In this document: piece by piece, positions 14,267 to 41,373 of the stretch
How positions within the stretch are numbered: position 1 is the stretch's first letter
Layout of the letters: each line of letters opens with the position of its first letter
DNA from: a virus
IMG/VR virus record: IMGVR_UViG_3300037504_000213
Location: 1 to 64,000 of that record
Direction: 5' to 3' (one strand)
DNA length: 64,000 nt
Notes under the pieces: model-generated
What the model was told of the DNA's origin: nothing
Databases searched by the model: none
What the model saw: the letters and a program-made list of their open reading frames with translations, nothing else
Position numbers and translations under genes: made by a program

Positions 14267-14682
14267 TTTTCCTTGGCATCGTTATAGCATTCTGTAAACC
14301 AAGACGACATCCCAATTGAGTTATACTCGTTCTCAAATGTCATGCCCCAGAAGCCATCATCAATATCTTTATATGCCTTTTGCTTGTGGGGATATGGCGG
14401 TTCTGGCCATTCTTCATCAAATCCGTCAGTAATGTGCCACGCAGCTACATTCCGAAGCCTAACGGCATTCATATCACGCATGAGCCTGTCTGCCATGTCT
14501 CTTGGAAGATCAACCTCTTCTCTGCTCTTCCCCTGCTCTTCGCAGAGGTGCACCACCTCGGCGTCATATCTCTCATACACATCACGTATGGCTTCTTCGT
14601 CTCGTGTAAGCCACGGACCCCTAAAATCAATCCAGTTGTCTTCGTGACCCTCTAACGGGCACTCATAATGATATTTGTTCAT
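14239..14682 (-). CDS. Tail assembly chaperone G
   Basis: 147 residues, acidic and Trp-rich (WIDFRGPWL, WPEPPYP), directly between the major tail protein (TAATG start) and the tape measure gene. Siphophages have the gpG-type tail assembly chaperone here, needed for loading and folding of the tape measure. The frame ends 26 bases after a purine-rich slippery run, and the -1 frame is open through this point and into the next gene. Sequence alone would not name the family; synteny plus the frameshift arrangement is strong. Confidence 0.75.
   Translation of the reverse strand: MNKYHYECPLEGHEDNWIDFRGPWLTRDEEAIRDVYERYDAEVVHLCEEQGKSREEVDLPRDMADRLMRDMNAVRLRNVAAWHITDGFDEEWPEPPYPHKQKAYKDIDDGFWGMTFENEYNSIGMSSWFTECYNDAKEKATSLDPTK
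14265..14272 (-). promoter_or_regulatory. Probable -1 frameshift slippery site
   Basis: The minus strand reads GGAAAAAG. In the zero frame it is read as G GAA AAA G, and slipping back one base gives GGA AAA AGC. The AAA codon re-pairs perfectly and the first codon imperfectly, so the site is not a canonical X-XXY-YYZ heptamer, but it is the only slippery run in the overlap of the two open frames. Confidence 0.65.
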
Positions 14683-15131
14683 TAGACTGTCACCGCGCCT
14701 GTTGTAACAGAACCATCAAAAATGTTGAGCGTCGCAGTCATCTTTACCATTTCCTGACCAGGAATGTCGAACGACATGTCTGTAACAATCATGGATGCAG
14801 ACCACAACGGATAAGAGGCAAGACAACCAGCTGGAGCAAGCTGTACCAGAAATGATGTTTCTTCGTCATAATAATGTTTGATTGCGCAAGCGGCGTTGGA
14901 TGCCGTAAGACCAACCCAAAACCCGTTGATGTCAATGGAAAATTCCTTGAGGCCAGACGAAGAGTACGAGCGTGTTGTGTCACACATTCGTGTGGTCTCT
15001 GGAACCTCTCTCGTGAAGTTAGCTGTGATCTGTTCAAGGTCACAGCTAAACTTGGTTAACGTACCGTCGCCAGCAATATCGTCGAAAAGCAGAACAGCAT
15101 TTCGACCGTGTGCTTCTATATTTCCTGCCAT
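14682..15131 (-). CDS. Major tail (tube) protein
   Basis: 149 residues with the size and beta-rich composition of siphophage tube proteins. Segments such as FSIDINGFWVGL and MVKMTATLNIFDG match the alternating strands of that fold. It lies between the tail-terminator-like gene and the two chaperones, where the tube protein is always found in this type of phage. It has its own strong ribosome-binding site (AAGGAG) that is partly inside a leader hairpin, consistent with separate control of a product needed in hundreds of copies. Confidence 0.8.
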   Translation of the reverse strand: MAGNIEAHGRNAVLLFDDIAGDGTLTKFSCDLEQITANFTREVPETTRMCDTTRSYSSSGLKEFSIDINGFWVGLTASNAACAIKHYYDEETSFLVQLAPAGCLASYPLWSASMIVTDMSFDIPGQEMVKMTATLNIFDGSVTTGAVTV

Positions 15132-15651: not shown

Positions 15652-16280
15652 AAATCAATGTCCAAATCCAAGTTTTCTGTCCAATCCTTTGCCAACATGC
15701 CTGAAAAATCCTTGGCCAATGACACAAAAACATTATCTTCAGCAATATCGTCTTTAAATGGATAGGCATAAACGCCTCTCTCTTTAATCTTTCTCCATAT
15801 CGGAAACGCTGGCAAGCTCCTTGCGTCAGCCCATAACATAATGGGCGTCCAAGGCAGGTTTGGTATTGGATCAGTCCCGAACTCAAGGTTGGCGGCTGCC
15901 AGAAACTCTTTCCCGCCAGAATTGTAATAATACAAGTCACTGTACACCGTCATGCGATTTCCATCAATAACGTACTGCCAGCTTTTGGAAAGCTCTCCAG
16001 TGTAGTAGTGATCTTCGTTGGCAATGAAGTCTTGTATCTCGCTGATTATTGCGTCTCCAACCTTTTCAAGGAAAGACTCTGCCAATTGCTCTGGAACCAT
16101 TGAGGCCACCGTGACAAGAAATTGCATCTCGTCAGTGGCCTCAATTGTCAGCAAATCTTCTTCTGATGGCAAATCTGGTCGAAGGCTTGCTATCATTTCC
16201 TTAATCTTAGATTTTAGGTCATTTACCCAATTCTCAAGCCTGTCCGCAAGGCCAGTTATTCCATTAAACAGTTTTTGCAA
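15648..16280 (-). CDS. Neck / HK97 gp10-like protein
   Basis: 210 residues. The central part, YYTGELSKSWQY followed by YSDLYYYN and the later W/P-rich segment, is like the HK97 gp10 family of head-tail joining proteins. The N-terminal 80 residues are helical. It overlaps the tail terminator gene by four bases (ATGA), and the upstream glycosyltransferase gene overlaps its start by 17 bases. It would sit at the head-tail interface. Confidence 0.6.
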   Translation of the reverse strand: MQKLFNGITGLADRLENWVNDLKSKIKEMIASLRPDLPSEEDLLTIEATDEMQFLVTVASMVPEQLAESFLEKVGDAIISEIQDFIANEDHYYTGELSKSWQYVIDGNRMTVYSDLYYYNSGGKEFLAAANLEFGTDPIPNLPWTPIMLWADARSLPAFPIWRKIKERGVYAYPFKDDIAEDNVFVSLAKDFSGMLAKDWTENLDLDIDL

Positions 16281-17625
16281 TCTCCCTTATAAGCTGCGCA
16301 ACGTTTTTTGCCCCACTGCCAGTGCCCTGATCCATTCTTCTCACAAAGTCTGCCATGTCTTTTCTGTAGTCGTATTCACTTGTAATGTGAATACGAATAG
16401 CTTCCGCAATATCATCGACATTCATATCTACATCCATTGGGTACTGCGTGCCGTAAACCTCATCTTTGTACTCATCAGCGTAGATGAGGGGAACGCCATC
16501 CAACACAGCTGCTTCTGTAGCAGAATTTGTGGCTGTGCACGATATGAGCAGCGACGCACTTGCAAGGACATTGCGGTATTCATCAAAGTCTGTAATAATA
16601 CGAAGATCTAGCGATTTGAATGGTTCAACGTGTTCTTGCACATGAGCCTCGCTTGGGTGTGGCTTGTACACCACAACAACTTGCTTATCTGTGCTTTCTG
16701 CAAACTTTTTTACCGCCTCGGCTATTGTAGACATCCATCTGGTCACAACGCCAAAGCCATGCTGGCCAGCGTGAGCCTGTTCTTCTGTGCCAATAACTGT
16801 GAGTACAATGGCGTCAAGGGGAAGATCAAGTACACGTCGTGCCATATCGCGTGATATGGCGTCTGCGGCTTGCCACATTTCATCAAAATGAGGGTTGCCA
16901 GTTACGATATACTGGCACTCATCGTTCCCGCGTTCTCTGTACCAATCAACATGATGCTGTCCTCCACAGCACAGGTGTGTAGCAAATGTGATGTCATGTA
17001 CGTCTGGCTCATTTGGGTCAAACTGCCTGTAGTGATTGGCATGAGGGATGTGAATGACATTTTCGCCAAGATGATTCAACATCATAGCCGTTGGTCTGGC
17101 ACGTGCTGTTACATCCTCCCATGTCAAGAATCCTACAAAGTTATCAATGCGTTGCGACACCCACCAAGCTCTGAACATATCTCTTGCAGCCTCAATGACA
17201 TTTCCCAAAAGAAGGGCATCTTCTGGCACATGATGTTTGGCAATTTTATCAAGAAACGTTCGGCTGGCGTCATGTATATATTTCCCAAGTTCGACCTTGG
17301 GAAGCTCCATGTTCACCACATGGTATCCACCTCTCGTCATGTATTTGCTAATATCATCGGATATTGGCAAAAAGAAAAAGTCATCCTTCAGGTGTGGAAG
17401 CACTGGCAGTACCGTATGCCTGCCACCAACGTGAACCATAATTAATGGCTTCTCTAGTGAAATTGTGTCTTGTGAGGGCGGTTTAGTGCGAATTTTTTCA
17501 TGCGCCCAAGGCAGCATTGCGTATTCCAACGCCACGTTGAGATCTACCCCGTCCACCATGCACCCCTGCCATTTAAAGGCTGTGTCGAGGGCTAAGTGGT
17601 GCAACTCACGATTCTTGTCTGTCAT
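16264..17625 (-). CDS. GT-B glycosyl/glycerophosphotransferase-like protein
   Basis: 453 residues. The C-terminal half carries V-Y-K-P-H-P-S-E and a later S-C-T-A-T-N-S-A-T-E-A-A motif, the pattern of CDP-glycerol glycerophosphotransferases, KpsS-like capsule enzymes and UDP-GlcNAc 2-epimerase-type GT-B folds. These transfer a sugar or polyol phosphate from an activated nucleotide. It is embedded between the neck gene and the capsid genes, unusual for a transferase, and forms a pair with the next glycosyltransferase (20-base overlap). The acceptor is unknown; a virion protein or host surface glycan is plausible. Confidence 0.7.
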   Translation of the reverse strand: MTDKNRELHHLALDTAFKWQGCMVDGVDLNVALEYAMLPWAHEKIRTKPPSQDTISLEKPLIMVHVGGRHTVLPVLPHLKDDFFFLPISDDISKYMTRGGYHVVNMELPKVELGKYIHDASRTFLDKIAKHHVPEDALLLGNVIEAARDMFRAWWVSQRIDNFVGFLTWEDVTARARPTAMMLNHLGENVIHIPHANHYRQFDPNEPDVHDITFATHLCCGGQHHVDWYRERGNDECQYIVTGNPHFDEMWQAADAISRDMARRVLDLPLDAIVLTVIGTEEQAHAGQHGFGVVTRWMSTIAEAVKKFAESTDKQVVVVYKPHPSEAHVQEHVEPFKSLDLRIITDFDEYRNVLASASLLISCTATNSATEAAVLDGVPLIYADEYKDEVYGTQYPMDVDMNVDDIAEAIRIHITSEYDYRKDMADFVRRMDQGTGSGAKNVAQLIREIAKTV

Positions 17626-19027
17626 TAAACATCTCCTGGTATGTGCTTGTAGCTGGTGCAGATGGAAGCTGGCGTGTTTGCTTAACTTTCATGGCATTTA
17701 CAGCAAACGCTATGTAACGATGTTGATTGGCAAATGCTGTAAGATTTTGCCTTGCATGCCTCATTGCGCCTAGCATTTTTTCCTTCTCCGCACTTAGGTT
17801 ATCAATAACCTGTCTTAACTTATTATACCATGCAGATTGTGTATTTTCAACTAAATGACCAAACGAGTTTGCCATTAGCTTGGGTGCTGCACTTGGGATG
17901 TAGCTGTCCTTATCCTGGTATGGCGCGCCGTTTGTTGCAATAAATGGTACACCAGCCATCATGTATTCCAGAACCTTAATCCACGATCTGTGCTCATCAT
18001 ACGAATAGCCAAAGTCATCTATTGGTTCAAGCTCAAGTGGCGCAATACCAACGTCAAACGTAGACACAACCAGTGGCCATGTGTAGCTGTTTACATAACC
18101 CTGGTGAATAATACGATCCTTTGGTACGTTGCCAAGTGGACCATCAATAATTCTTGTGTCGCCACCGCAAATCTTAATCATAACATTGTCTGTCTCTTCA
18201 ATTATTTGCTCAAGCGCTGGCACAATGTTGCTCAGATAAAAGCTGTCAAGGTGACCAGAGCTTCCACCCCATCCAATGATGATCTGGCGTTCGCTTCCAT
18301 CTCTTTCAGCTACATCAAATCGTCTTTGATCTGCCAAATGAGACACTGCATTAACGAATGATCTTGCTGGCATATTGCCCCACGATGGAAGATAGGCAGA
18401 TATGTTGTCCTGCATAAGCTGGTGCATCACATCTGCATCTATTGGCCTATTGTGCGGTTCGAACATAACGTCTGGCGCGCCGATTTGTTTTTGTCTAACG
18501 GTTCTATATGATCGCGGGTCTGCAAAGTTTGGAAGATGAAATACTGGCAGTGTTGCATCAAATCTCTTCCAAGATTCCAACAAAACCTTCGATGGTGAAA
18601 CGACACCGTCGCTGTGATTTACGACACCTTCTATTAGACCTTCAACAGTGTCGTACGGCAATCCAGATCTGCCCTTGACCCAGTACTGGTGCGCTGGGTT
18701 AATCGGCGGCAGGGCAGTGTAGTGATCATCCAAATCTACCAAGACAACCTGCCCGCGCAGCCTAAAACGATCCATTGCCTCCATAATGGATTTATCAAAG
18801 ACGTTTCTTTCCATAATGATAATATCGGCAGTTCCGATCAGCCTGTCAACTTCTGGGTCTCTCCAACGCGCTGCCGAGTTTAGGTGAATAACCTGAGCTT
18901 CAAGGATGTTGCCACCACCAGTTATGTTTATGCTGTCTGCTGGTGTTCTGGATCTCCACTGAGAGACATTGGCGTTTCTAATATCATCAGCATACAAAAA
19001 CATTAACTTCAACTTGTTCTCTTGCAT
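17606..19027 (-). CDS. Glycosyltransferase, GT-B (GT4-like)
   Basis: 473 residues. The C-terminal Rossmann-like half has GWGGSSGHLDS, D-V-G-I-A-P-L-E and W-I-K-V-L-E-Y-M-M-A-G-V-P-F-I-A, the signature of retaining GT4-type transferases, where the E-Y-M-A-G-P region binds the nucleotide sugar. The N-terminal acceptor half is variable. It has a GGAGG ribosome-binding site and its own strong promoter at 19046-19086, so this pair of transferase genes can be expressed apart from the head genes. Likely partner of the sugar operon at 26-36 kb. Confidence 0.75.
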   Translation of the reverse strand: MQENKLKLMFLYADDIRNANVSQWRSRTPADSINITGGGNILEAQVIHLNSAARWRDPEVDRLIGTADIIIMERNVFDKSIMEAMDRFRLRGQVVLVDLDDHYTALPPINPAHQYWVKGRSGLPYDTVEGLIEGVVNHSDGVVSPSKVLLESWKRFDATLPVFHLPNFADPRSYRTVRQKQIGAPDVMFEPHNRPIDADVMHQLMQDNISAYLPSWGNMPARSFVNAVSHLADQRRFDVAERDGSERQIIIGWGGSSGHLDSFYLSNIVPALEQIIEETDNVMIKICGGDTRIIDGPLGNVPKDRIIHQGYVNSYTWPLVVSTFDVGIAPLELEPIDDFGYSYDEHRSWIKVLEYMMAGVPFIATNGAPYQDKDSYIPSAAPKLMANSFGHLVENTQSAWYNKLRQVIDNLSAEKEKMLGAMRHARQNLTAFANQHRYIAFAVNAMKVKQTRQLPSAPATSTYQEMFNDRQES

Positions 19028-19045
19028 GTTTCCTCCGAATCAAAT

Positions 19046-19086
19046 AAGTCCGACCTAATTATAGATCGGACTTAATATTATGTCAA
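19046..19086 (-). promoter_or_regulatory. Consensus sigma70 promoter within inverted repeat
   Basis: On the minus strand TTGACA (19086-19081), 17 bases, then TATAAT (19063-19058): both hexamers and the spacing are perfect. The -10 box sits in the loop of a 9-bp inverted repeat, TAAGTCCGA (19045-19053) and TCGGACTTA (19066-19074). It drives the two glycosyltransferase genes; the repeat is probably an operator, or less likely a terminator of the connector gene. Confidence 0.9.
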
Positions 19087-19096: not shown

Positions 19097-19603
19097 TTAA
19101 TTGTAGTCGAACTGATCTTTCCTAAACGAAGGCTGCACAAGATCTGAGTCGTCAAGAAGCTCTTCTTTGTCGGTTTTGCTTTGTCCAGTTATCTTGACAT
19201 GTGTGTTATAAGTAAGGCCAAGCTCACTGAGTTTTGAGCACTTTAACATATCCAGGTTTTCAAGATACTCTTTTCGTCTCAACTCCCCCCTGGTTCTTTC
19301 CTCTATGGAGATCGTTGCAGATATTTGCCTATCCTCTGCTCTCCATGCGGCATACAGCGCGCTTGTGATAGTCAGGAATGGATAAAATGCTATGTCACTT
19401 CCGACTGGAACCGTATATCCGCGTGTCGCTAAAACAGCATTTATTTGCTGATCTGCGACATTCAACCATGTGTTTACAACGGTCAGTGAAGGATTAGTGT
19501 CACTGGCAAAATTACTTGCGCCAGTGCCACCATAGTCGGCGTCCGTAAATATGACTCCTTCTCCGACTATGGCAGCAACATCAGAGGCGGATGCGTACGA
19601 CAT
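19097..19603 (-). CDS. Head-tail connector (gp6-like)
   Basis: 168 residues. The helical N-terminal part (S-Y-A-S-A-S-D-V-A-A-I-V-G, a short loop, then a helix with W-L-N-V-A-D-Q-Q-I-N-A-V-L) is typical of phage head-tail adaptor proteins that bind the portal. The acidic C-terminus is extended. It lies immediately after the major capsid gene, six bases away, as expected for the first connector. It is the last gene before the glycosyltransferase insertion. Confidence 0.65.
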   Translation of the reverse strand: MSYASASDVAAIVGEGVIFTDADYGGTGASNFASDTNPSLTVVNTWLNVADQQINAVLATRGYTVPVGSDIAFYPFLTITSALYAAWRAEDRQISATISIEERTRGELRRKEYLENLDMLKCSKLSELGLTYNTHVKITGQSKTDKEELLDDSDLVQPSFRKDQFDYN

Positions 19604-19609: not shown

Positions 19610-20596
19610 CTAAGCTAAGCAGTCCGATACGAGGAGTCCAGCCTCAGAGCTAACGACCACTTCGTCAACAAAGTGCTCGGCAACCATCTTGGTAAAGCCT
19701 TCCTCGTCATATCTGAATTCCTTGATTTGTCTTGGAACGCCGATATAGTCTGGAACCCATTCTACAATCGCACCAGCTGTTGGATTCATGAACGCTGGAG
19801 CGGCATCAACGTAACCCCACCAACAGTAATCGCCATCCCATATATCTGACATTGACGATTCCTCGCCCTGATCAGATGTGTCATAGATGGCTGTACCGAT
19901 AAGGATTCTTTCCATCTCCCACATAGCCTGAAGAAGCTGCACGGTGACCATAGCTGGTTGGCCGTTGGTCGCACCACCTTCTACACGAGCAAGCATATCT
20001 GGATGATTCCTGAGAGCCTGCCACGTCTTGGCACCCATAACAACAGTGTTTGGATACACGCCCATCTGTGTTCTGAACGTTTCTCTAATATCAAGGCCAC
20101 CCTTGATAACCTCAGCAGTGTCGTCATTAAACTGAGCGCCAAAGATGTTTGTCGCAGTATCAGAGTTGCTGCTCCAATTGCCACTCGTGTTAACCATGTC
20201 GGCAACACGCTTTTCCATGCTCAGGAACAGTGCGTCCATCGCCAATTCCATAGTTGTGGTTCGTATCAGCGGTCTAGCGGCATCATCTGCGATGTCAAGC
20301 GTGTGATCCAGCAATCTTTCACCGTGAGAATAGTTCTCACAATTATATGTCCCTGGATCCCCCATACCCCACGTCGATGTGGAGTACTTGGTGCCTGGAG
20401 CATGAGCAGTCGCCTTCAGTCTAAATCTGTCGTTCTTCTGTAACTTTCTGAACTGACCAGACTGCTGATCGGATCTGAACATTGGGAAAATGAGTTCGGC
20501 AATGTACTGCATGTTGGAGTAGCCCGTAGCCAGCTGGCTAAGGACACGGTTAATTGCATTGATTTGATTCTTACCTAAAGTTGGATTATAAGCCAT
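19610..20596 (-). CDS. Major capsid protein (HK97 fold)
   Basis: 328 residues, the usual size for an HK97-fold major capsid protein made without a large delta domain. It contains the E-loop-like N-terminal strands and a conserved-looking central G-V-Y-P-N-T-V-V-M-G-A-K-T-W-Q-A-L segment, a common pattern in this family (a helix after a strand that builds the axial domain). It follows a protease/scaffold gene and a small head protein and precedes the connector. It has a strong ribosome-binding site. Confidence 0.85.
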   Translation of the reverse strand: MAYNPTLGKNQINAINRVLSQLATGYSNMQYIAELIFPMFRSDQQSGQFRKLQKNDRFRLKATAHAPGTKYSTSTWGMGDPGTYNCENYSHGERLLDHTLDIADDAARPLIRTTTMELAMDALFLSMEKRVADMVNTSGNWSSNSDTATNIFGAQFNDDTAEVIKGGLDIRETFRTQMGVYPNTVVMGAKTWQALRNHPDMLARVEGGATNGQPAMVTVQLLQAMWEMERILIGTAIYDTSDQGEESSMSDIWDGDYCWWGYVDAAPAFMNPTAGAIVEWVPDYIGVPRQIKEFRYDEEGFTKMVAEHFVDEVVVSSEAGLLVSDCLA

Positions 20597-25616: not shown

Positions 25617-26100
25617 CGTATATAACCATATCGATGTGATTTGCTTTTCTGTACTCATGGTTCTGTCTACAGGATGAGTATGGAGAATTAGGAAGAAGAG
25701 GGTCTGTCATGTTAGGGTCAATTCCATAACCCTCAAGCTCCCAGTAACTCCTGGAATGCCAACCACGAATCTGCCTTCCAGTAGTGTGTATGGCCAAGCC
25801 ACTTCTTTCTGGCTCTGGGTACATCATGACAGTAAAATACTGAAGATCAACACCATCAACCTGCTCTGGCATGGCAACCTCGTAACCGCTCTGCCGATGC
25901 CTGTTGGCATTGTGATACCTGTTGTCTTCCATGCGTATCAATGTCCTTAACCAGGGTTCATCATGGCGTCCAGCGTATTCTTTATTGCACTCAACACATA
26001 AAGAAAATCTTTTAGAAGACAATCTTCTGTTGCATATTGCGCAATGTTTTTTATCTATTTGATACCTGTTGTCCCTTATTGTTGTCATCATCATCACCAT
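25606..26100 (-). CDS. Zinc-ribbon protein, HNH-like or structural
   Basis: About 164 residues. The N-terminus has a C-x2-C (CAIC) and C-x2-C (CVEC) pair that should form a zinc ribbon; the rest is His/Tyr-rich and shows no catalytic motif I can name. Start choice is uncertain because a run of ATG codons (26100 to 26088) follows a poor ribosome-binding region. It lies between the terminase genes and the sugar operon, overlapping the cytidylyltransferase gene. Confidence 0.5.
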   Translation of the reverse strand: MVMMMTTIRDNRYQIDKKHCAICNRRLSSKRFSLCVECNKEYAGRHDEPWLRTLIRMEDNRYHNANRHRQSGYEVAMPEQVDGVDLQYFTVMMYPEPERSGLAIHTTGRQIRGWHSRSYWELEGYGIDPNMTDPLLPNSPYSSCRQNHEYRKANHIDMVIYDAS

Positions 26101-27100
26101 TACTGTGACATTCAATCTCTTCCCTAATACTGTCTTTTAAAGACAGCCACCACGAAGATACAGTCTGCTGAGCAACACCATAGTGCTCACCTATTGTGCG
26201 TTGTAGGTGATTCTGCAATATTGCTGCCAAGATCCATTTGTCATGATCAGACAAACCCTCTACAACCGCCTTAAGCTCTGGGTTTTCAAACTCAAGTATT
26301 TCCAAAGGATCGCCCTGGAACTCAGTTATGGTCTTGGTCGGTACGCTTGAGTTAATTTCAGCAACCTCTGGGTGTTCATCAAGCCAAGTCACCAGGTCAC
26401 TTAACTTGCTGGACTTCATTGGCATTTCTTTGTCAACTGCCCTTAGCCATTCAATATCCTTCTCTGTATCCACCTCAACTCTATACTTTGGACGCCAATA
26501 AATATCGTCGTCCTTTAGTACACCAACCCTTATCTTTGAAGCATCCTTGAGGTCATTAATGTTCTTGTACATCCATTGTCCAGCGTGCTCAAGGTCATCC
26601 TTAGACTTGCTGTTTTCAACAATCATATCCCATGCCTTGATAGACCAAGGGCTTTCGGCTGATCCGTACAGCGGCCAATTTCGTTTACCATTTGCTGGAA
26701 GAGACTTTGGTATCATGACATCCATGTTGTGTAATGCCATGTGCTCATATGCCCATATTACATTGTTCCACTCAATGTACGGGCAATCGCCAAGACCCCT
26801 GAAGATGTACTTGACATCTGGGAACATGAGCCTCACCAAGTTCATGTTGTGTACAAGGTTGCCCATCTCAGATCGCGCAACCTTTATGCCACGCTTTTTA
26901 GCAACCTCAACAATAACGTCGTCACAGCTGTTAATTGTTGTTGCAATAGCAACACTAACATCTGGAGCGAAAAAAAACAATCGGTCAAGCCATTTTTCAA
27001 CTAGTGGCTTGCCATTTATGTCTGCCATCATCTTTCCGTGACGTCTCTTTGCGCTCATATGGGCGCATAAGACAACTAGCATATCTTTATTCAAACTCAT
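26051..27100 (-). CDS. Cytidylyltransferase-like protein with C-terminal HTH
   Basis: 349 residues. The ATG at 27100 follows GAGG six bases upstream. Residues 6-200 resemble acylneuraminate cytidylyltransferases and SpsF-type nucleotidyltransferases (LVVLCAHMSAKRRHGKMMAD, then RGLGDCPYIEW, then Y-R-V-E-V-D-T-E-K-D), which activate a nonulosonic acid as its CMP sugar. The C-terminal 60 residues contain a sigma-region-4-like helix-turn-helix (HYGVAQQTVSSWWLSLK). That enzyme-HTH fusion is unusual. It is the last gene of the sugar operon. Confidence 0.65.
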   Translation of the reverse strand: MSLNKDMLVVLCAHMSAKRRHGKMMADINGKPLVEKWLDRLFFFAPDVSVAIATTINSCDDVIVEVAKKRGIKVARSEMGNLVHNMNLVRLMFPDVKYIFRGLGDCPYIEWNNVIWAYEHMALHNMDVMIPKSLPANGKRNWPLYGSAESPWSIKAWDMIVENSKSKDDLEHAGQWMYKNINDLKDASKIRVGVLKDDDIYWRPKYRVEVDTEKDIEWLRAVDKEMPMKSSKLSDLVTWLDEHPEVAEINSSVPTKTITEFQGDPLEILEFENPELKAVVEGLSDHDKWILAAILQNHLQRTIGEHYGVAQQTVSSWWLSLKDSIREEIECHSNGDDDDNNKGQQVSNR

Positions 27101-28271
27101 ATGTCCCCTCAAGATATTCAGCGCCAGCACGGGCGGCCATATCTGCCTCAATAACATTGTTGGCAACTACTATCACACTTCCAAGCCTATCGCCGTGGCT
27201 TTTAACACCATCAAACTTATCGCCAACCTTCTTATATTTGACCTCCATAACGCCAACCGCGCTATTCGTTGACGGCATTGGCATTTCATCGTAACATACG
27301 GATGGCTCTGGGCCACGTACAATAGTTCCGTTTTTAGGAAAGCCGTAGCGTTGCGAAAACCACTTGCCATTCCATGACACATTACCAGAAACATCGTGAT
27401 CCATGTCAAGGGCGTGCATTATCGCGTGCCCCACAATGTCCATTCCTGGAAACACGGCGTCAAATATATCTGACGCCAAGTAGCCGCCACTTAGCCTTGG
27501 TGCTATCTCAAGCACATAGATGTTTTCTCCGTCATATATGGTGTCAAGTTTTAATGCGGCTCCCTCTTCTACGCCGAAGACGTCAGCAACCTCATCAAAA
27601 GCCAATTTGTTTATAAGGTAAAGATCGCTGTTGATAACAGGACCAATACAGCCGTCCTCTACTGGATGTGTGCCAAAGGTTTTGTCGTAATTTCTCATTG
27701 CGACACCAATTAGCGGAGAACCAACGACACCCTCCACACTAAACTGCTTTCCTTTTATTTCCTCGGAGACAATAATGCTTCTAAGTATCTGTACATTTTT
27801 TGCACCCCTGCTTTTATTAGCTGTATATATATAAAAATTACCATGCTTCTTGGGCGGGGACAAGAAACTAACATAACCAGCCTTTTGCAATCCAGACAGG
27901 GTGCTATAAAGCCCCATTTTGTCAACACTCAGTATCGCAAGTTCTTCTGGAACAGCGGCTTTGCAAGACAACGATAGTGCAACTTGACATTGTACATCAG
28001 CGGCATCGGTTGCCGCGCACATTACACCATCAACCTCCAACCCGTCAATCAGTTGCTTGTAATACAATTCTCTGATAATTTCGTCTGCGTCATAGCATGA
28101 AGCCTTTACAAAAACATCAGCCTCTTGGACACAAAACGCATTTGGGTCCATGTCAATTGCCACTATGCGACAGCCAAGCTCCCGTGCACGATTATAGATG
28201 CTGGCAGCCTCTATGCCAGCACCCAACATCGCAATTGTCATCCCATTAGCAGCACCACGATCAACCTTCAT
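27087..28271 (-). CDS. ATP-grasp ligase-like enzyme
   Basis: 394 residues. An N-terminal Rossmann-like start (MTIAMLGAGIEAASIYNRAREL) and the later pattern of a substrate-binding domain followed by L-E-I-A-P-R-L-S-G-G-Y fit the ATP-grasp superfamily, related to carbamoyl-phosphate synthase and PurK-like ligases. Such enzymes join a carboxylate to an amine or thiol with ATP. In sugar clusters they often acylate an amino sugar. The start at 28271 follows GAGG nine bases upstream. The substrate is unknown. Confidence 0.65.
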   Translation of the reverse strand: MKVDRGAANGMTIAMLGAGIEAASIYNRARELGCRIVAIDMDPNAFCVQEADVFVKASCYDADEIIRELYYKQLIDGLEVDGVMCAATDAADVQCQVALSLSCKAAVPEELAILSVDKMGLYSTLSGLQKAGYVSFLSPPKKHGNFYIYTANKSRGAKNVQILRSIIVSEEIKGKQFSVEGVVGSPLIGVAMRNYDKTFGTHPVEDGCIGPVINSDLYLINKLAFDEVADVFGVEEGAALKLDTIYDGENIYVLEIAPRLSGGYLASDIFDAVFPGMDIVGHAIMHALDMDHDVSGNVSWNGKWFSQRYGFPKNGTIVRGPEPSVCYDEMPMPSTNSAVGVMEVKYKKVGDKFDGVKSHGDRLGSVIVVANNVIEADMAARAGAEYLEGTYEFE

Positions 28272-28545
28272 CTGTGCCATCCTCACTCGCATCTCTGGGC
28301 GTACGGTCAGATTGTTCCTCAATTCTTAATATCTTAACGACACCAGACCGCCTACAATATCTGGTAGCCTCTGGCTTTCCATCATCATTTTTAGAAATAT
28401 CGTATGTCATTGAACCCATTACTTCATGGGCGTGTTGCTTTAGCCACACCTCTGGATCTGTAGCAACAATACCATCTTGGTATACCTCATTCTTTACCTC
28501 ACCACCCAACGATGGGTCGATTTCGATATGTCTAGCAATATACAT
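28261..28545 (-). CDS. Hypothetical protein, 94 aa
   Basis: Acidic small protein with an AAGGAG ribosome-binding site before the ATG, overlapping both neighbours. The C-terminus is Asp/Glu-rich. It lies inside the sugar operon between two enzymes and has no recognised domain. Confidence 0.55.
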   Translation of the reverse strand: MYIARHIEIDPSLGGEVKNEVYQDGIVATDPEVWLKQHAHEVMGSMTYDISKNDDGKPEATRYCRRSGVVKILRIEEQSDRTPRDASEDGTDEG

Positions 28546-28767
28546 TTAATACTCCTTCAGTATTTCATTTACTTTCGCTACTGCAAAATCAATATCTCTC
28601 CATGCAAGTGTTGTAATGTTAGACAGCCGTCTAATTAACTGATCGTCAATCACTACATTGCTCACAAGGACACTTCTCTTCTGTTGTCTGCGTCTGTCCA
28701 CCAGCTTTACCTCTGTCAACATGCGTACTCCGTGCACAATATTCTCGTATATTGACAGTCTTATCAT
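28546..28767 (-). CDS. Hypothetical protein, 73 aa
   Basis: The ATG at 28767 follows GGGAG five bases upstream; the stop is directly adjacent to the next start. The product is helical and charged with no family I recognise. It overlaps the 97-residue gene upstream by about 120 bases in another frame, so at least one of the two could be weakly expressed, although both have plausible starts. Confidence 0.45.
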   Translation of the reverse strand: MIRLSIYENIVHGVRMLTEVKLVDRRRQQKRSVLVSNVVIDDQLIRRLSNITTLAWRDIDFAVAKVNEILKEY

Positions 28768-28939
28768 CTTTACTCCCAAGCGTATTCATGCCAACGTTAT
28801 TTATGGCTTCGCACACAGCATCCCATACAGACATTGGATCTATGAACGTGTTTGCACTAATACTGTGCGTTCCACCCCTAGTGCCCATTGCGAATTCACA
28901 GACAACACCTTCTTCATCGACCTGTATAAAAATTTCCAT
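28646..28939 (-). CDS. Hypothetical protein with C-terminal Cys pair
   Basis: 97 residues ending in C-P-C-E-Q-C-S-D. The start overlaps a TAAATG junction with the fusion gene upstream and has AAGGATAA before it. A large overlap with the following gene makes this a less certain call. Function unknown. Confidence 0.45.
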   Translation of the reverse strand: MEIFIQVDEEGVVCEFAMGTRGGTHSISANTFIDPMSVWDAVCEAINNVGMNTLGSKDDKTVNIREYCARSTHVDRGKAGGQTQTTEEKCPCEQCSD

Positions 28940-30136
28940 TTATCCTTTATCCTTTATCCAAAGTTGAATTGCATCTAACGGCAGTTTGCTTTGCATCGCA
29001 TAATCCATCTTTACATAGTGTTCTCCTCTCGTAACAGCCCAAACCATGTCAACTGGAAGGCCGTGATCCCCAACGAAGCCTACAAACTGCTGTGGTGTTT
29101 GCCAATTTTGCTTGTGTGATGGCATAACTGGCACACCCCACGGAAATTGCTTCTCCAAAGGGACCTCAAGAATTAAAAGCCCACTTTCGCCTAGCATCGT
29201 CCATAGGTGCCATAGCGCAACCTCTGGCTCATCAAGATGTTCAAGCGTGTGGCACGACACAATGAGATCAAAGCCACCATGTGACTTTTTGTTGATAAGT
29301 GCATCTGGCAACGTGTTCCTTTCCATATCCCAATACACAAGGTGATTGCCCTCACTTCTACAATGAGAAAAATCAATATCAGCACCAACAACTTCACGCG
29401 CATATTTGTTCATTGCATTTGTGCCACTTCCCGTGCCACAGGCTGCATCAAGTGCAAGATCAAACCAGTCAACGTCATAGTGCTCAGACGCCAGCTTCAA
29501 GAACTTATTATATTTACCGTAATTTCCAAGGTCGTGCCTCTCAAACCAGCTTGGCTTATTTCTAATCTCCTGTACTGACATTATATCGCCGTATTCCCTT
29601 GGATAGCACGGCGCTGATTTGAACTCATCATCATGATGCAGTATATAGTTCCACGGCCTCATTTTCACGGAGCTTTCGTGTTCATGTGACGCAAGTTTCT
29701 GAACCGCCTCGCGTGAAAGTACGTCAGCACCAGCGTTCACGTTCCAGCTATGTGGAAGATGAACGTAGTCTAGGTCTTTATCAACAAGGAGTTTTATCTG
29801 CTGAGCAATAACTTCCTGAGACGAGTAAAACCTTGGAAAAATAGTTCTGACAATAACATCGTAATTGCATGATTCTGCGAAAACCCTCATTTGACCAACA
29901 AGATCTTTGTTTGGTAAAAAGTGGCGGCTTGCTATATCCCATATATTGCCGAGATAATCGAAGATGCTATTTTCTGGACCAAAGTCACTGCAAATCGTCA
30001 TACCCCAAGAATTGTCAAATGCTCCTGGTGCCCAGTTTGACTTGTCAAGAACATCAAGCCAACTCATGTCATCAACAATGTCTGTATGGTGGGCCTGAAT
30101 AAAAACACCTATCTTCTTACCCTTGTACGAACGCAT
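28940..30136 (-). CDS. SpsF-like / methyltransferase fusion
   Basis: 398 residues. The ATG at 30136 follows AGGAGAAGG. Residues about 1-200 resemble a degenerate SpsF-type nucleotidyltransferase (V-I-V-R-T-I-F-P-R-F-Y, then N-A-G-A-D-V-L-S-R-E-A-V), without the canonical N-terminal nucleotide-binding loop. Residues about 240-390 are a SAM-dependent methyltransferase (LDAACGTGSGTNAMNK, then V-V-G-A-D-I-D-F-S, then S-C-H-T-L-E-H-L). The product probably O- or N-methylates the sugar made by the operon. Confidence 0.6.
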   Translation of the reverse strand: MRSYKGKKIGVFIQAHHTDIVDDMSWLDVLDKSNWAPGAFDNSWGMTICSDFGPENSIFDYLGNIWDIASRHFLPNKDLVGQMRVFAESCNYDVIVRTIFPRFYSSQEVIAQQIKLLVDKDLDYVHLPHSWNVNAGADVLSREAVQKLASHEHESSVKMRPWNYILHHDDEFKSAPCYPREYGDIMSVQEIRNKPSWFERHDLGNYGKYNKFLKLASEHYDVDWFDLALDAACGTGSGTNAMNKYAREVVGADIDFSHCRSEGNHLVYWDMERNTLPDALINKKSHGGFDLIVSCHTLEHLDEPEVALWHLWTMLGESGLLILEVPLEKQFPWGVPVMPSHKQNWQTPQQFVGFVGDHGLPVDMVWAVTRGEHYVKMDYAMQSKLPLDAIQLWIKDKG

Positions 30137-30893
30137 TGACCTTCTCCTCAATTTTGTCTGCAATCCTGCACGCAGCGTCACTCCTGACAACCCTTTCTGG
30201 TCTATTGTACATTAATCTGTCAATTACGTCGGCCAAGTCTTCCCATCGCATATCTTCGTTTACAAAAAACACCTCTTGTGCAACACCACGCTCTAACATT
30301 AACATGGCATCATCCATTCTTTTCTGATCCACCGCCAGCAACACAACTGGCTTTCTCATGGCGTTGGCCTCATAGGCAATGCGCCCTGGCGCAGTCAAAA
30401 CGACTGCACTGTGACCAACGACATTATACCACGCTTGATGCGGAATCTCAACGACATTTTTAGGTATCTCGTAATCCTGTTGCACAAGATTACCCCTCCC
30501 AAGCATAAACTTCATGGTAGGCCAATTCGTTGCAAGTTCGGCAAGAACGCTGTTACCAAGATCATCAACATCAGAGGAACCAAACGCAACTGCCACATAA
30601 CCATCAGACCTTGTGTTCTGAAACCACTTCTTATCAACCACAACGTCCTGCACGCTATCAACAAGCTCGCTATAATATATCGTTAGCGGAAGAAAGTATC
30701 TTCCGTCGGCCTTCCACCAGTCATACACGACAGCATCTGTATCGTGATCTGGGGTAAAGACCTGATCCACGTTTAGCCTGTAGAGCCATGCGTCATGGCC
30801 CCTATTTCTCATCTCTTGAACGATAGGTTCACACCTTGCCGCATGACCGCCACCACAGCAAGTGTCATATGAAACAACAAAATCCACTTTCAT
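30117..30893 (-). CDS. PseG/SpsG-like GT-B protein
   Basis: 258 residues. The ATG at 30893 forms an ATGA overlap with the upstream stop. The N-terminus (SYDTCCGGGHAARCEPIVQEM) matches the G-G-G-H-x-x-R start of PseG/SpsG and MurG-like proteins, and F-G-S-S-D-V-D-D plus L-T-A-P-G-R-I-A-Y-E-A lie later, as in the GT-B fold. PseG removes the UDP from the amino sugar before condensation by NeuB/PseI. This fits the neighbouring synthase. Confidence 0.6.
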   Translation of the reverse strand: MKVDFVVSYDTCCGGGHAARCEPIVQEMRNRGHDAWLYRLNVDQVFTPDHDTDAVVYDWWKADGRYFLPLTIYYSELVDSVQDVVVDKKWFQNTRSDGYVAVAFGSSDVDDLGNSVLAELATNWPTMKFMLGRGNLVQQDYEIPKNVVEIPHQAWYNVVGHSAVVLTAPGRIAYEANAMRKPVVLLAVDQKRMDDAMLMLERGVAQEVFFVNEDMRWEDLADVIDRLMYNRPERVVRSDAACRIADKIEEKVNAFVQG

Positions 30894-31531
30894 AACCAAT
30901 ATCCTTCTCTATATGGATTTAGGGCCGAAACATCATCTCTTTTTGTAGGACCAATAAATGGCATGTCCATTATATCAAAAAAATTTATCTCTGTAAATAG
31001 AGCTTTATGAGGACTTCTCGACACGACATCATTAGTGGCCCTTTCCCTTATGACCAGTTCTCTGACGCCCCAATAATTTTTTACATTTCTTGGCCCAACA
31101 CGCCAGTCGTCGTTCAAGCAGCCGCCGTACATTCTATTAGATATAAGTGTCCTCCAAAATTCATTGGAAGACGACAGTCTAAGCCTTGCGCCTCCCCACC
31201 CAACCTGAGACGGGGGAGTAACAATCTTAACCTTAACGCCATCAATTTTTGTTCTTACTATCTGCCCCTTTCTCATTACCTTTCGCTTGTAGTCAAGTTC
31301 AAATTCAGCCTCTATGCCAGCGTCTTGCACAGCACCCCTTATATGTGCCCAGGTGTAAGAGGTAAAAGGCTTGAGGTGCCCGTAAGGAAGTCCAAGTGCG
31401 GTAACAGCCATAACGTTTTCATGTAACATATAGACATCACCGCACGGAACCAACTTGGCGTAAACGCTCTTAAACAACACTTTGACTTCTTCAAATATCC
31501 TTTTGCCCTCTTCAAGAGTTACGCATTTCAT
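30890..31531 (-). CDS. DNA polymerase X / pol-beta thumb-like protein
   Basis: 213 residues. The segment V-K-I-V-T-P-P-S-Q-V-G-W followed by R-L-S-S-S-N-E-F-W and the C-terminal T-E-I-N-F-F-D-I-M-D-M-P-F-I-G-P resemble the palm end and thumb of family X polymerases (typical: TGSKEFN, then TEEDIFDLLGLPYIPP). The first half lacks a clear G-S motif and the usual catalytic Asp pair, so it is likely inactive or altered. Its presence in a sugar operon is odd; it may be a nucleotidyltransferase-derived protein with another substrate. Confidence 0.5.
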   Translation of the reverse strand: MKCVTLEEGKRIFEEVKVLFKSVYAKLVPCGDVYMLHENVMAVTALGLPYGHLKPFTSYTWAHIRGAVQDAGIEAEFELDYKRKVMRKGQIVRTKIDGVKVKIVTPPSQVGWGGARLRLSSSNEFWRTLISNRMYGGCLNDDWRVGPRNVKNYWGVRELVIRERATNDVVSRSPHKALFTEINFFDIMDMPFIGPTKRDDVSALNPYREGYWL

Positions 31532-32678
31532 TTAACACCTCTACTGCTTCTTTCGCCAACGATATGGCATCTTCCTTGGTGTGTATAAGTGTTGCAAAGT
31601 TTGGACGCCACACTAGATGCCCGCGCCGTAGCAATTCCATACTAAACTTTTTCATAACACTGTCTGGCACATCAAACCATGTTCGCGTTGGGTTGTTTCC
31701 AACAATGCGATAAGAAATATAGTTTTCGTTCGCAAGGCCATTGAACGTTGACATAAGTGTATCACCAACACTGTAAATGTGATCGTAAAGCTCTGGGTGA
31801 TCTCTATAATACTTCAAGTTTAACTGTGCCGCCCGTAAACCACGCGGGTGTCCAAAATATGTCCTACTGAAATGAACATGTTTCCCGTGAAAGGGTGAGA
31901 GCATTAACATTACATCTTTGTTGCCAACAACAGCACTAATGGGTTCGTCACCGCCAAGCGCCTTACCATAACAGGCCAAATCTGGTATGACACCATAATG
32001 CTCAGTCGCACCGCCAATCCCGTAACGGAACCCAGTCACCACCTCGTCAAAGATTAACAATGCTCCGAGCTTGTCGCACACTTCTCTGCATTGTGTCAAA
32101 AATTCTTTGTATTCCTTATATGGCATTTTGCCATCGTCTTCAACAATAATAGCGGCTACTGAACCAGCCATTTTTGTATTTCTTAGCCACTGCAAAGAGT
32201 GTTTATCCAGCTTCAGTATATTGTTGTTTTTATTGAACTGCGCTTGAGTTCCATACTTTGAGTCTGCCCAGAGAAAAGATGAGCCATGATAGCCATAGGA
32301 ATAAACATTCTCTCTGTTGGTATAAGCTATGGCCAGCTTCACAGCCATTTCTGTTGCATCACCTCCACTTAGGGCAAAACGCGCCATGTGATCCTGCGTG
32401 TTTGCCCAAGGCAACACCTCTATCAAAAGCCTTGCGACGCGACTTTCTAGCGGTGAACGAAACGAACCGCATGGATTGGCCTCTACGCCACCCCAGTAGT
32501 TATATCCAAGCAATGGGCCGTATTGACCCATAACCCAACTTGTACACGGATATTCAGAACCGTCACTTGCAATCACAGTTTCGTGTACACCTTCACAAAT
32601 TAACGTCTCGCCATCTAATGGGCGATACTTTAGCGTCCTGCTGTCTAACGACGCACCGCCTGGAACGAGATTATCCAT
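31512..32678 (-). CDS. Class III PLP aminotransferase (HemL-like), copy 1
   Basis: 388 residues. LIFDEVVTGFRYG has the catalytic-pocket Asp, and C-Y-G-K-A-L-G-G has the PLP-binding Lys, both hallmarks of class III aminotransferases and glutamate-1-semialdehyde aminomutase. SGGDATEMAVKLA binds the cofactor phosphate. In nonulosonate-type clusters an enzyme of this family can aminate a keto sugar. GAGG lies six bases before the ATG. It overlaps a polymerase-like gene downstream. Confidence 0.8.
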   Translation of the reverse strand: MDNLVPGGASLDSRTLKYRPLDGETLICEGVHETVIASDGSEYPCTSWVMGQYGPLLGYNYWGGVEANPCGSFRSPLESRVARLLIEVLPWANTQDHMARFALSGGDATEMAVKLAIAYTNRENVYSYGYHGSSFLWADSKYGTQAQFNKNNNILKLDKHSLQWLRNTKMAGSVAAIIVEDDGKMPYKEYKEFLTQCREVCDKLGALLIFDEVVTGFRYGIGGATEHYGVIPDLACYGKALGGDEPISAVVGNKDVMLMLSPFHGKHVHFSRTYFGHPRGLRAAQLNLKYYRDHPELYDHIYSVGDTLMSTFNGLANENYISYRIVGNNPTRTWFDVPDSVMKKFSMELLRRGHLVWRPNFATLIHTKEDAISLAKEAVEVLNEMRNS

Positions 32679-33003
32679 CTGTTACCTCCACATACCCCAA
32701 ACTTTCTATAGCGTTGGCAATCGCAAGATCAACAGCACTGTCCAAAACAACTTCTAATTTGGCAACATAATCATAGTCCATTGATGATGCAGCCATAATT
32801 GATATGCAACCATCACATGTCTTGACAAAAACCCGATACCGCTTTTCGTCAGGGCAAAATGGCCGTGGGTCACCGCCTATGATATAACTCTCACCTATTG
32901 GCTTAAAGCTACCAGATGTCCATTCGCCAAAAGTAACCTTCTGGGCTAACCAATCAGTAGAATCACAGCGGATAAGACCATCAGCTTTTATTTCTTTTCC
33001 CAT
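32671..33003 (-). CDS. Hypothetical protein, 110 aa
   Basis: Small protein between the two aminotransferase genes with no recognised domain. Overlaps on both sides (8 and 16 bases) indicate co-translation. It might be an accessory subunit, but nothing in the sequence says so. Confidence 0.5.
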   Translation of the reverse strand: MGKEIKADGLIRCDSTDWLAQKVTFGEWTSGSFKPIGESYIIGGDPRPFCPDEKRYRVFVKTCDGCISIMAASSMDYDYVAKLEVVLDSAVDLAIANAIESLGYVEVTDG

Positions 33004-34103
33004 GTCTTAACTTTCTCCAATGTTGTTTTCACATCAAGTTTGTTATGCGCGTCTGTCGCATAATTTCTATTCCACATGATAATGCCATTATCGAACATGT
33101 GCTTGGCAAAACTCTTTCGCTCATCCCTGGGCAGCCTTATTGAAAAATTAGTGTCTTGCCCAACTGTTCCAAAGCCAAGGTCCTGAAGTCCTTCCTTTAG
33201 GCTGTGTCCAATCTTGGATATTTTTTCAAATACGCTATCAAACCTTGTGACATTTTCAAGAAAGGCTATTGCTATAGATACTGCAAATGGGTCCCCAGAA
33301 AACGTTGATGAAGAATACACATCATCAGCAAGGTGTTGCATAAAATCGATTTGTCCACCCAACACGGAAACAGGTGAACCCCACGCTTTCCCATATACAA
33401 CCATAGATGGGTTTATATCAATACCAACTTTTCCGTAATACTCAACTGCACCACGCAAGCCAAGTCTGAACCCAGTTACTACTTCGTCAAGAATAATTGG
33501 TATGCTAGATTTTGTGCATAGGTCAATGCCAAGCCTCAACCAATCCAGGAAATCATCAGTTCCATCATCCATCGACAGATCCACAATCCAACACGCGGCC
33601 ATACTGTCCAGACGACGCTTCAGCTCCTCAGAGTCGCGATATGGCACATAGCGAGTGCCCTCAGCCGTTCCATAAGTAATACCACCATCTCTGGGTGGCC
33701 GTATAAAGCTACTGCTCATTCCGTGATAACCAGATGAGACAACCCTGTTCCTGCCCGTTTCTGCACGAGCAATGCGTACAGCAGCCTCACAGGCGTTACC
33801 ACCAGTTTGACTTAGCCAAACAGCTTCAACATGTGGCATAATGTCACAAACCATGCCAGCAAGCCTGTTTTCAAGTTTATGCCCAGACGACCCCAGTGAG
33901 CCGTTGCCCATAAAGATTGGTGTCCCTGGTATGTTCCTGGGATGATGAAAACCAAGCACGGGACCATAATGGCCCATCTGCCATGACTTGTACTTATTCC
34001 CATCTTCGCCAACCTCTACAGCACCCCAATAGCCATATGTTTGTTGGCCTATAGCATTGTACAAGGACGAACGCGCTAAACACGATGATTTATTAATGAG
34101 CAT
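32988..34103 (-). CDS. Class III PLP aminotransferase, copy 2
   Basis: 371 residues. I-I-L-D-E-V-V-T-G-F-R-L-G carries the conserved Asp, and V-V-Y-G-K-A-W-G-S-P the PLP Lys. It is a diverged paralogue of the other aminotransferase 400 bases downstream, with a differing N-terminus and phosphate-binding region (TGGNACEAAVRIA). Two such enzymes in one operon suggest two amination steps or a diamino sugar product. Confidence 0.8.
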   Translation of the reverse strand: MLINKSSCLARSSLYNAIGQQTYGYWGAVEVGEDGNKYKSWQMGHYGPVLGFHHPRNIPGTPIFMGNGSLGSSGHKLENRLAGMVCDIMPHVEAVWLSQTGGNACEAAVRIARAETGRNRVVSSGYHGMSSSFIRPPRDGGITYGTAEGTRYVPYRDSEELKRRLDSMAACWIVDLSMDDGTDDFLDWLRLGIDLCTKSSIPIILDEVVTGFRLGLRGAVEYYGKVGIDINPSMVVYGKAWGSPVSVLGGQIDFMQHLADDVYSSSTFSGDPFAVSIAIAFLENVTRFDSVFEKISKIGHSLKEGLQDLGFGTVGQDTNFSIRLPRDERKSFAKHMFDNGIIMWNRNYATDAHNKLDVKTTLEKVKTWEKK

Positions 34104-34287
34104 ATCCTGGCTTCATCCTTTTATTTGGCACATCTGACATATCGTCGTTTTCCCAGATCTTGACACACGCAACCTCATCAGATTCTTTCATCCTCTGAAT
34201 GCCTAATGCGTCAAGCGCCTTCCAGCTGCGCCACTTTTTCTGAAATGTACATATGCCGTTCCAGTCATATACCTTCATGATAGCCAT
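34093..34287 (-). CDS. Hypothetical protein, 64 aa
   Basis: Starts in a TAATG junction with the NeuB-like stop and overlaps the aminotransferase gene by 11 bases. Rich in Trp and Lys at the N-terminus. No family recognised. Confidence 0.5.
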   Translation of the reverse strand: MAIMKVYDWNGICTFQKKWRSWKALDALGIQRMKESDEVACVKIWENDDMSDVPNKRMKPGYAH

Positions 34288-35216
34288 TAAAGCACGCCCC
34301 TAACAGCACGAAGTGGTCGCTTTTCGTCAAGCGGATCAGCACGCCAATAAACCTCGTCTCTTTCACATTCTTGCGGAAACTTATAGCCATCGCCAAGGCG
34401 TTCGTCTCTCTGACTTTCAAATTCATTGTCTGGCGTCATATTAATAATGTTTCTAGCGTCTCTTGAATACCCATAGGGGTCATCCAAAAAATAAGAATGC
34501 CCATTTTCATTCCCAATACTATCTAAATCGAAATGAACCTCTATAACCTCGGCACCAAGATTCACGGCCTGTATTACAACGTTGACGTTTGCAGTATGGT
34601 CGCTATAGCCAATTGCAACTCCAGGAAACGCTCTTTTTAGTGCCTCAATGGCAAGAAGATTAACTTGATCCTCTGGCGTTGTATAGGCAGACACACAATG
34701 CAATATTGACAACTTGCCATCAGGTAAATCAAGTGCCCCACCCAAAGACAGGGAGGACATAATCTCTGGCATTGTGGCGGCCCCAGTAGACACAATGATG
34801 CCCTTTACCCCAGAGTTTTCAGACGACACAATCTTAGTGGCTTTTCGCATCATTTTATAGTTCAACAGTTCATAGCTGCCAAACTTGATGTAATCAATGC
34901 TTTGTCCAGCAGACCACTTCATTTGACTTATTCTATCAAGATTATTTGTATTCAGTGTAGTAACAATGTAGTCCATCCCAAGCTCATGTGTGTATTCGCA
35001 AAGCATTGGATGCCAACTGTTTGGCGTAAATGGATAATACGGATTAGACTTGTACTTCTCAACTGCATATCTTTCACAGTAGACGTCTTCCCACTTAGAA
35101 AGCATTTGGGTTTTCACTGCGTCAAACCCAACATCCTTGACAGCCTCAATTAGCTCAAGCGCCCTGTGAATGTCACCATTGTGATTACTGCATAACTCAG
35201 CGATATAGTATGTCAT
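34287..35216 (-). CDS. NeuB-like nonulosonate synthase
   Basis: 309 residues from the ATG at 35216, which follows GGGAGGGAAGG. The start Y-Y-I-A-E-L-C-S-N-H-N-G-D is diagnostic of the NeuB/SpsE family, and V-S-T-G-A-A-T, then L-L-H-C-V-S-A-Y-T-T-P, then G-Y-S-D-H-T-A complete the TIM-barrel core. The enzyme condenses a sugar with phosphoenolpyruvate to make a nine-carbon nonulosonic acid. The C-terminal antifreeze-like SAF domain of full NeuB proteins is not visible; the tail after residue 250 is unlike it. Confidence 0.8.
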   Translation of the reverse strand: MTYYIAELCSNHNGDIHRALELIEAVKDVGFDAVKTQMLSKWEDVYCERYAVEKYKSNPYYPFTPNSWHPMLCEYTHELGMDYIVTTLNTNNLDRISQMKWSAGQSIDYIKFGSYELLNYKMMRKATKIVSSENSGVKGIIVSTGAATMPEIMSSLSLGGALDLPDGKLSILHCVSAYTTPEDQVNLLAIEALKRAFPGVAIGYSDHTANVNVVIQAVNLGAEVIEVHFDLDSIGNENGHSYFLDDPYGYSRDARNIINMTPDNEFESQRDERLGDGYKFPQECERDEVYWRADPLDEKRPLRAVRGVL

Positions 35217-35220
35217 TGGC

Positions 35221-39561: not shown

Positions 39562-39573
39562 TTATCCTCCTTG

Positions 39574-39645
39574 AGGCCCAGGTGAGACTTGCACTCACAT
39601 GAAAACGCTTTGCAGGCGTATACCTTTCTATTCGGACACTGGGCC
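39574..39645 (-). tRNA. tRNA-Cys (GCA)
   Basis: Acceptor GGCCCAG pairs with CTGGGCC. The anticodon loop CTGCAAA gives GCA, with stem ACGC/GCGT and a T-T mismatch at the outer pair. The T arm is GTGAG-TGCAAGT-CTCAC, with an atypical loop. Discriminator U; no CCA is encoded. Confidence 0.75.
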
Positions 39646-39647
39646 TA

Positions 39648-39720
39648 AGCTCCGAGTGAGATTTGCACTCACGGCCTCCGCGTTACAAAGGCGGCGCTCT
39701 ACTAACTGAGCTATCGGAGC
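39648..39720 (-). tRNA. tRNA-Thr (UGU)
   Basis: Acceptor GCTCCGA/TCGGAGC, D stem GCTC/GAGC, anticodon UGU in a loop whose top pair is C-C, and T arm GTGAG-TGCAAAT-CTCAC. It follows the tRNA-Cys gene two bases away and shares the same unusual T-loop start, so the two are probably processed from one transcript. Confidence 0.8.
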
Positions 39721-39730
39721 GTTGTACTAT

Positions 39731-40180: not shown

Positions 40181-40191
40181 GTTTTTCTCCT

Positions 40192-40467: not shown

Positions 40468-40494
40468 TATACCTCCTAACCTTAATTAAACCCA

Positions 40495-40567
40495 TGCTCG
40501 CGGCTGGACTCGAACCAGCAACCTGTCGGTTATGAGCCGAATGCTCTAACCATTGAGCTACGCGAGC
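40495..40567 (-). tRNA. tRNA-Met (CAU)
   Basis: Acceptor GCTCGCG/CGCGAGC, D stem GCTC/GAGC, anticodon loop CTCATAA with stem TTCGG/CCGAC (one mismatch), T arm GCTGG-TTCGAGT-CCAGC. CAU can also be tRNA-Ile with a modified C34; sequence alone cannot decide. Confidence 0.85.
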
Positions 40568-40575
40568 TTGTATAT

Positions 40576-40863: not shown

Positions 40864-40867
40864 CGTT

Positions 40868-41370: not shown

Positions 41371-41373
41371 TTG

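Follow-up and report, generated by a model that had tools for sequence, protein, structure and literature searches.

To our knowledge, glycosylation of phage virions is a recent finding, known mainly from mycobacteriophages. In these phages, capsids and tail tubes are reported to receive glycans from phage glycosyltransferases (GTs) (Freeman et al., 2023, via PMC10877033, PMC11600133 and PMC12619734), and numerous phage-encoded GTs are described as glycosylating DNA (Pyle et al., 2024, via PMC12619734). For a phage-encoded nonulosonate pathway we found no direct precedent in the literature searched.

The DNA analysed here (the window) covers the initial 64 kb of an uncultivated virus record that is 76,273 bp long. 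Its structural genes lie on the minus strand and are transcribed towards lower coordinates. First comes a sugar operon (36201 to 26051), followed by small genes, the terminase, portal and protease genes, a 145-aa protein, the major capsid protein and an adaptor-like protein. Two GT genes, GT1 and GT2, come next, then a 210-aa gene, a 153-aa gene, the major tail protein, two genes of 147 and 87 aa, a probable tape measure of 1492 aa and more tail genes. The features around the GT genes are as follows.

19610..20596, minus strand: major capsid protein (phrog_1005, 9e-55)
19097..19603, minus strand: head-tail adaptor-like gene, directly after the capsid gene and upstream of the GT insertion (phrog_195, E 0.0035; Mu Gp36, 0.089)
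17606..19027, minus strand: GT1 (473 aa), a GT4-like GT-B enzyme from the 'LDDDLW' family of phage glycosyltransferases (profiles, relatives and model)
16264..17625, minus strand: GT2, 453 aa, probable GT-B transferase with a C-terminal half resembling CDP-glycerol transferases and TIGR04396
15648..16280, minus strand: 210-aa gene overlapping GT2, presumed neck or tail completion protein
14682..15131, minus strand: major tail (tail tube) protein (Pfam PF06199, 5e-4; phrog_1407, 8e-7)

Genes, order and overlaps were read directly from the sequence, and both GT ORFs were confirmed, as was their position in the head–tail operon, where they follow the genes for the capsid and the adaptor-like protein and precede those for the tail. 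The original prediction that they lie between connector genes stands less firmly, as the upstream neighbour matches phrog_195 no better than E 0.0035 and the product of the 210-aa gene matched nothing in family searches. Elsewhere in the window we observed six tRNA genes (39573-41569) and a phage-encoded Ro60/TROVE protein with a vWA domain (46429-48003, minus strand; Pfam, 5e-59), with an 11/12 promoter match (48107-48080) and a hairpin of 10 bp ahead of it.

The ORF at 17606-19027 on the minus strand clearly encodes a GT-B enzyme, as judged from its structural model. GT1 has a Shine–Dalgarno sequence, CGGAGGAAAC, ahead of its ATG start, and matched Pfam Glyco_trans_1_4 (7e-5) and phrog_7162 (5e-10). 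The AF2 model was confident (pTM 0.78), with two Rossmann-like domains resembling GT-B structures, and a Foldseek comparison with the PDB returned the GT4-type retaining enzymes MshA, PimA and BshA, with E-values down to 1.6e-12. Using a three-sequence alignment that included Arthrobacter phage Racecar gp174 and Streptomyces phage Zuko gp5 as query, we found 19 further viral loci with GT1 relatives, which were then aligned. The family has the motif ELDDDLW, and GT1 retains D100, D101, G252-W253, H259, P330, S348, K351 and E354, including the C-terminal K/E donor site; residues ~177-245 comprise ~70 extra positions modelled with low confidence.

That both genes encode GT-B transferases, as had been proposed, is thus well borne out for GT1 and less so for GT2, which is nevertheless probably a GT-B enzyme on sequence grounds. 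GT2 scored below the curated cut-off of Pfam Glyphos_transf (PF04464; E 7e-4, 19.1 versus 22.1 bits) and of NCBIfam TIGR04396 (E 2e-7, 30.3 versus 125 bits), and appears related to both families without being filed as a member of either. GNPHFD and KPHPSE motifs are present in its C-terminal half, and, in our reading, GT-B enzymes with such HP motifs often take CDP- or CMP-linked donors. A model built without an alignment had a pLDDT of 37, with moderate values at residues ~270-360 only, so that only the C-terminal half is suggestive. The top Foldseek matches of this poor model were 2-epimerases, whose fold is also GT-B, raising the alternative that GT2 is a sugar epimerase of the UDP-GlcNAc 2-epimerase type that feeds the pathway and is not a transferase. 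We consider this highly improbable, as a fold ranking drawn from such a model is unreliable, no Epimerase_2 match was returned from Pfam at E 0.1, and transferase families do match GT2.

Searches of viral contigs, genomes, phages and plasmids gave no detectable relative of GT2; its phage matches at E 0.4-4 were judged to be chance, the best being an unrelated GT-B ORF. Exact peptide scans of viral contigs for GT1 and GT2 relatives, and a search of bacterial genomes for relatives of GT2 and an aminotransferase, yielded none that could be confirmed, and PDB sequence searches with either GT returned nothing real. The two as a pair were found nowhere else. Their GC and GC3 are in line with those of their neighbours, giving no sign of recent horizontal import, and neither contains transmembrane-like segments.

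The region upstream of GT1 was predicted to hold a near-perfect promoter with an inverted repeat over its -10 box, and both are present, the promoter sequence proving to be a perfect consensus match.

19058..19086, minus strand: predicted sigma-70 promoter, TTGACA-17-TATAAT, a 12/12 consensus match with an expected start at ~19051-19052
19045..19074, no strand assigned: inverted repeat across the -10 box (13-bp arms, loop of 4, 92% complementary)

This is the best match, and the only 12/12 site, in the whole record. By a hand estimate such a site is expected by chance ~0.05 times per whole genome and 2-3e-5 times in the 69-nt gap between the adaptor-like gene and GT1; no other gap between the first sugar gene and the tail is as wide. 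The -10 box lies over the centre of the repeat, which as RNA gives z = -3.4 versus shuffles and is followed by a weak U-run (TTTGATT). It is, however, less special than it looks, since the genome is ~4 times richer in hairpins than shuffled sequence (38 versus ~8 of at least 10 bp; 9 versus ~0.2 perfect or near-perfect ones of at least 12 bp in dinucleotide shuffles), and many of the genome's hairpins are inside genes. The repeat is single copy, with no second occurrence in the genome within 2 mismatches, and a phage regulon sharing it as operator is accordingly unsupported; on its own it is not strong evidence for an operator. Transcripts arriving from the head genes would include the whole hairpin, whereas those from the GT promoter would start inside the second arm of the repeat and could not form it. 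This arrangement fits a block to read-through, an operator or both, and we regard the repeat as a candidate operator, a candidate terminator for the head unit, or both. Past the end of the window, at record positions 67164-67209, we also saw a perfect 16-bp inverted repeat.

Downstream, GT1 and GT2 overlap by 20 nt and GT2 and the 210-aa gene by 17 nt, the latter gene starting with a TTG codon within the 3' end of GT2 (Shine–Dalgarno sequence AAGGGAGA), and no terminator was found between them. The promoter therefore appears to open a unit of GT plus tail genes and not a closed cargo cassette, and probably serves both. A moron would bring its own promoter, which the GT pair has as a predicted site, and its own terminator or separate unit, which it has not. 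Thus, whilst the feature itself is real, the description of the pair as separately controlled cargo is doubtful: a predicted promoter of its own was found, whereas a separate unit with its own 3' end was not, leaving that description unsupported as written. The original observation is in this sense partly confirmed, and its interpretation partly supported.

A sugar operon, on which that interpretation drew, does exist and is of the nonulosonic acid type.

35221..36201, minus strand: PseB-like UDP-GlcNAc 4,6-dehydratase, the first operon gene (TIGR03589, 2e-37, below cut-off; PDB matches)
34287..35220, minus strand: NeuB/PseI-like nonulosonate synthase (Pfam NeuB, 8e-36; TIGR03569/TIGR03586; PDB matches to SpsE, PseI and NeuB)
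31512..34103, minus strand: two class III aminotransferases (32988-34103 and 31512-32678, family matches) with a 110-aa gene between them
30117..30899, minus strand: PseG-like nucleotide-sugar hydrolase, a weak match (TIGR03590, E 0.002)
26051..30190, minus strand: tailoring and activation genes, namely a methyltransferase (28940-30190), an ATP-grasp ligase (27087-28322) and a CMP-transferase (26051-27166)

The operon combines a NeuB/PseI-type synthase with a CMP-transferase, the latter from a sub-threshold Pfam match, and the assignment to the nonulosonic acid class, although not to an exact sugar, is well supported by these family matches. No PseH-type N-acetyltransferase (GNAT, PF00583) was matched in the record; a 213-aa gene of no recognized family lies at the right place for one. 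The NeuB/PseI-like ORF extends to 35357, its true start probably being internal, and for gap measurement the starts of NeuB, the methyltransferase, the ATP-grasp ligase and the CMP-transferase were set as internal by hand. From the first sugar gene through the terminase, portal and capsid genes the gaps are then no larger than 11 nt, so the sugar operon and head genes look co-expressed as one unit; a promoter-like site lies ahead of the PseB-like gene, at 36269-36241. Separately, a C-terminal stretch (275-350) of the CMP-transferase-like ORF (26051-27166, minus strand) matches sigma-70/ECF factors and a phage sigma-factor family; in this ORF a helix-turn-helix domain may be fused to a sugar-activating enzyme. 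A 'Sialic acid synthase' match in Moritella was rejected as coming from a bacterial contig filed among phages; this sequence (FPLJ01000048.1) is a Moritella viscosa capsule-locus contig present in the phage collection despite its bacterial annotation.

Phage GTs may also act on nucleic acid, and the window contains one further gene relevant to this.

45324-45929, minus strand: ThyX-type thymidylate synthase, a possible base-modification enzyme

Together with the DNA glycosylation described above for many phage GTs, this gene would suit the proposal that the pair glycosylates phage DNA bases against restriction. We hold this to be very improbable: the GTs are placed in a structural unit, and in a partial scan no base hydroxylase, hydroxymethylase or base glucosyltransferase was recognized among the genes covered.

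Whether the same insertion occurs in other phages had been raised as a check, and the answer was mixed, with GT1 relatives in head or tail operons of three viruses and the pair in none. A GT1-like gene lies between the portal and protease in L012, between the protease and major head protein, beside a methyltransferase, in L019, and directly behind the tail genes in L018. The placement thus recurs, and in L012 and L019 it is, as here, an insertion within the head operon; unlike here, none of the three has a strong sigma-70 promoter at the GT (7-8/12). Zuko gp5 lies, with a UDP-glucose dehydrogenase, just upstream of the terminase, and L023 has two GT1-like genes ahead of its terminase. In L022 it is a primase that adjoins the GT1-like gene, so structural placement is frequent and not universal. 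These loci, together with Racecar gp174, share the GT1 family and its conserved motifs, and differ from the present one in mostly carrying a single GT (two in L023), with neither a GT2 partner nor NeuB. In L023 (2418-6706, tandem GT1-family genes upstream of the terminase) the match to the terminase additionally contains two TGA codons, possibly from stop-codon reassignment or from a match overrunning the gene end.

NeuB was found in none of the 19 records with GT1 relatives, many of which are short fragments. As GT1-family genes occur without it, GT1 by itself does not imply a nonulosonic sugar. This speaks for a reading in which the 12/12 site does no more than drive late expression of the tail genes, and the two GTs are an ordinary passenger in a post-capsid insertion site, with chemistry unrelated to the sugar operon; so do the coding overlap with the tail genes and the lack of a terminator. 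The site does take insertions in Laroyevirus phages, which are relatives of this phage's head module and to which portal matches reach E 1e-85: gp26 and gp27 are adjacent in Waltz, whilst LiSara has three extra genes (gp27-29) between their homologues. We nevertheless judge this reading rather improbable, because two co-directional, overlapping GTs and a nonulosonate pathway are unlikely to meet by chance in one small genome, and because makers of nucleotide sugars would be idle without a transferase and no other was recognized among the scanned genes.

Some GT1-family loci also hold nucleotide-sugar epimerases and further GTs, which would fit a role of the pair at the host envelope, modifying a lipid-linked glycan, teichoic acid or surface polysaccharide and thereby blocking superinfection or freeing progeny. 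The families nearest to GT2, CDP-glycerol glycerophosphotransferase and the 'surface carbohydrate biosynthesis protein' TIGR04396, likewise act on cell-surface polymers, and nonulosonic acids are sugars typically found on cell surfaces and flagella. Against this, no integrase or resolvase, no GtrA flippase (a host flippase could serve) and no multi-transmembrane protein of the seroconversion type was recognized in the record, which may be incomplete, and the genes are placed late, among structural genes. These absences, with that of transmembrane segments in the GTs, point to a phage protein being modified in the cytoplasm rather than to surface conversion by a prophage, and we consider the envelope reading unlikely, if less so than the passenger one.

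Sugar-coating of the virion is the best single explanation of the locus, to which we give about an even chance. The promoter at 19086-19058 would open a second late unit, comprising GT1, GT2 and the neck and tail genes, right behind the head genes, and the repeat would either stop read-through from the head unit or bind a repressor that covers the -10 box. We infer that both GTs are glycosyltransferases expressed late and acting in the cytoplasm, of which GT1 would most likely add the first sugar to a phage structural protein (candidates being the neighbouring capsid, neck and tail-tube proteins) and GT2 would most likely extend it, plausibly with CMP-nonulosonic acid from the upstream operon. 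That the pair glycosylates a virion protein in the cytoplasm, with a glycan that may include the phage's own nonulosonic acid, seems to us evenly balanced. The fuller proposal, that the phage makes a nonulosonic sugar within its late head operon and two dedicated transferases set it on the capsid or tail to give a self-sialylated virion, is possible and on balance doubtful. In favour of virion glycosylation are the GT1 relatives seen in head or tail operons of three other viruses, the way the sugar operon runs on into the head genes, and the precedent of the glycosylated capsids and tail tubes reported for mycobacteriophages. Counting against it are the GT1 relatives without NeuB, the position of GT1 outside the Che8 GT family and the weak support for the class of GT2.

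Donor-sugar synthesis, head assembly and the GTs seem to be linked through neighbouring late units; this would make the question of why phages sugar-coat themselves testable and yield new CMP-sugar enzymes. GT1-family genes recur inside head operons elsewhere among viruses, which points to a more widespread practice that has received little study.

Amongst known systems, GtrABC lysogenic-conversion cassettes are likewise phage genes that alter sugars, and differ in the GtrA, transmembrane GT and integrase not detected here. PseC is a DegT-type aminotransferase. The PseBCHGIF and Bacillus sps operons, like that of the phage, unite PseB-, NeuB/PseI/SpsE-, PseG- and CMP-transferase-like genes, whereas the phage operon has class III aminotransferases instead of PseC, no GNAT that we could find, and in addition a methyltransferase and an ATP-grasp ligase. 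A phage NeuB amid sugar-nucleotide genes is also carried by Marine virus AG-345-L05 (Kyanoviridae), only 28% identical over 66% and with neighbours identified by eye from ORFs; around 10128-12828 this NeuB lies beside an apparent cytidylyltransferase and an apparent DegT-type aminotransferase, in what would be another phage nonulosonate region. Mycobacteriophage Che8 differs in that its GT genes 108-110 lie at the right genome end, away from the head and tail genes, in that its capsid glycosyltransferases belong to a family other than that of GT1 (an HMM search of L034 gave no match), and in the lack of a nonulosonate operon in the Che8 stretches examined. With Che8, Rita and the cluster O mycobacteriophages the locus nevertheless shares tandem phage GTs, for which capsid and tail-tube targets are reported there.
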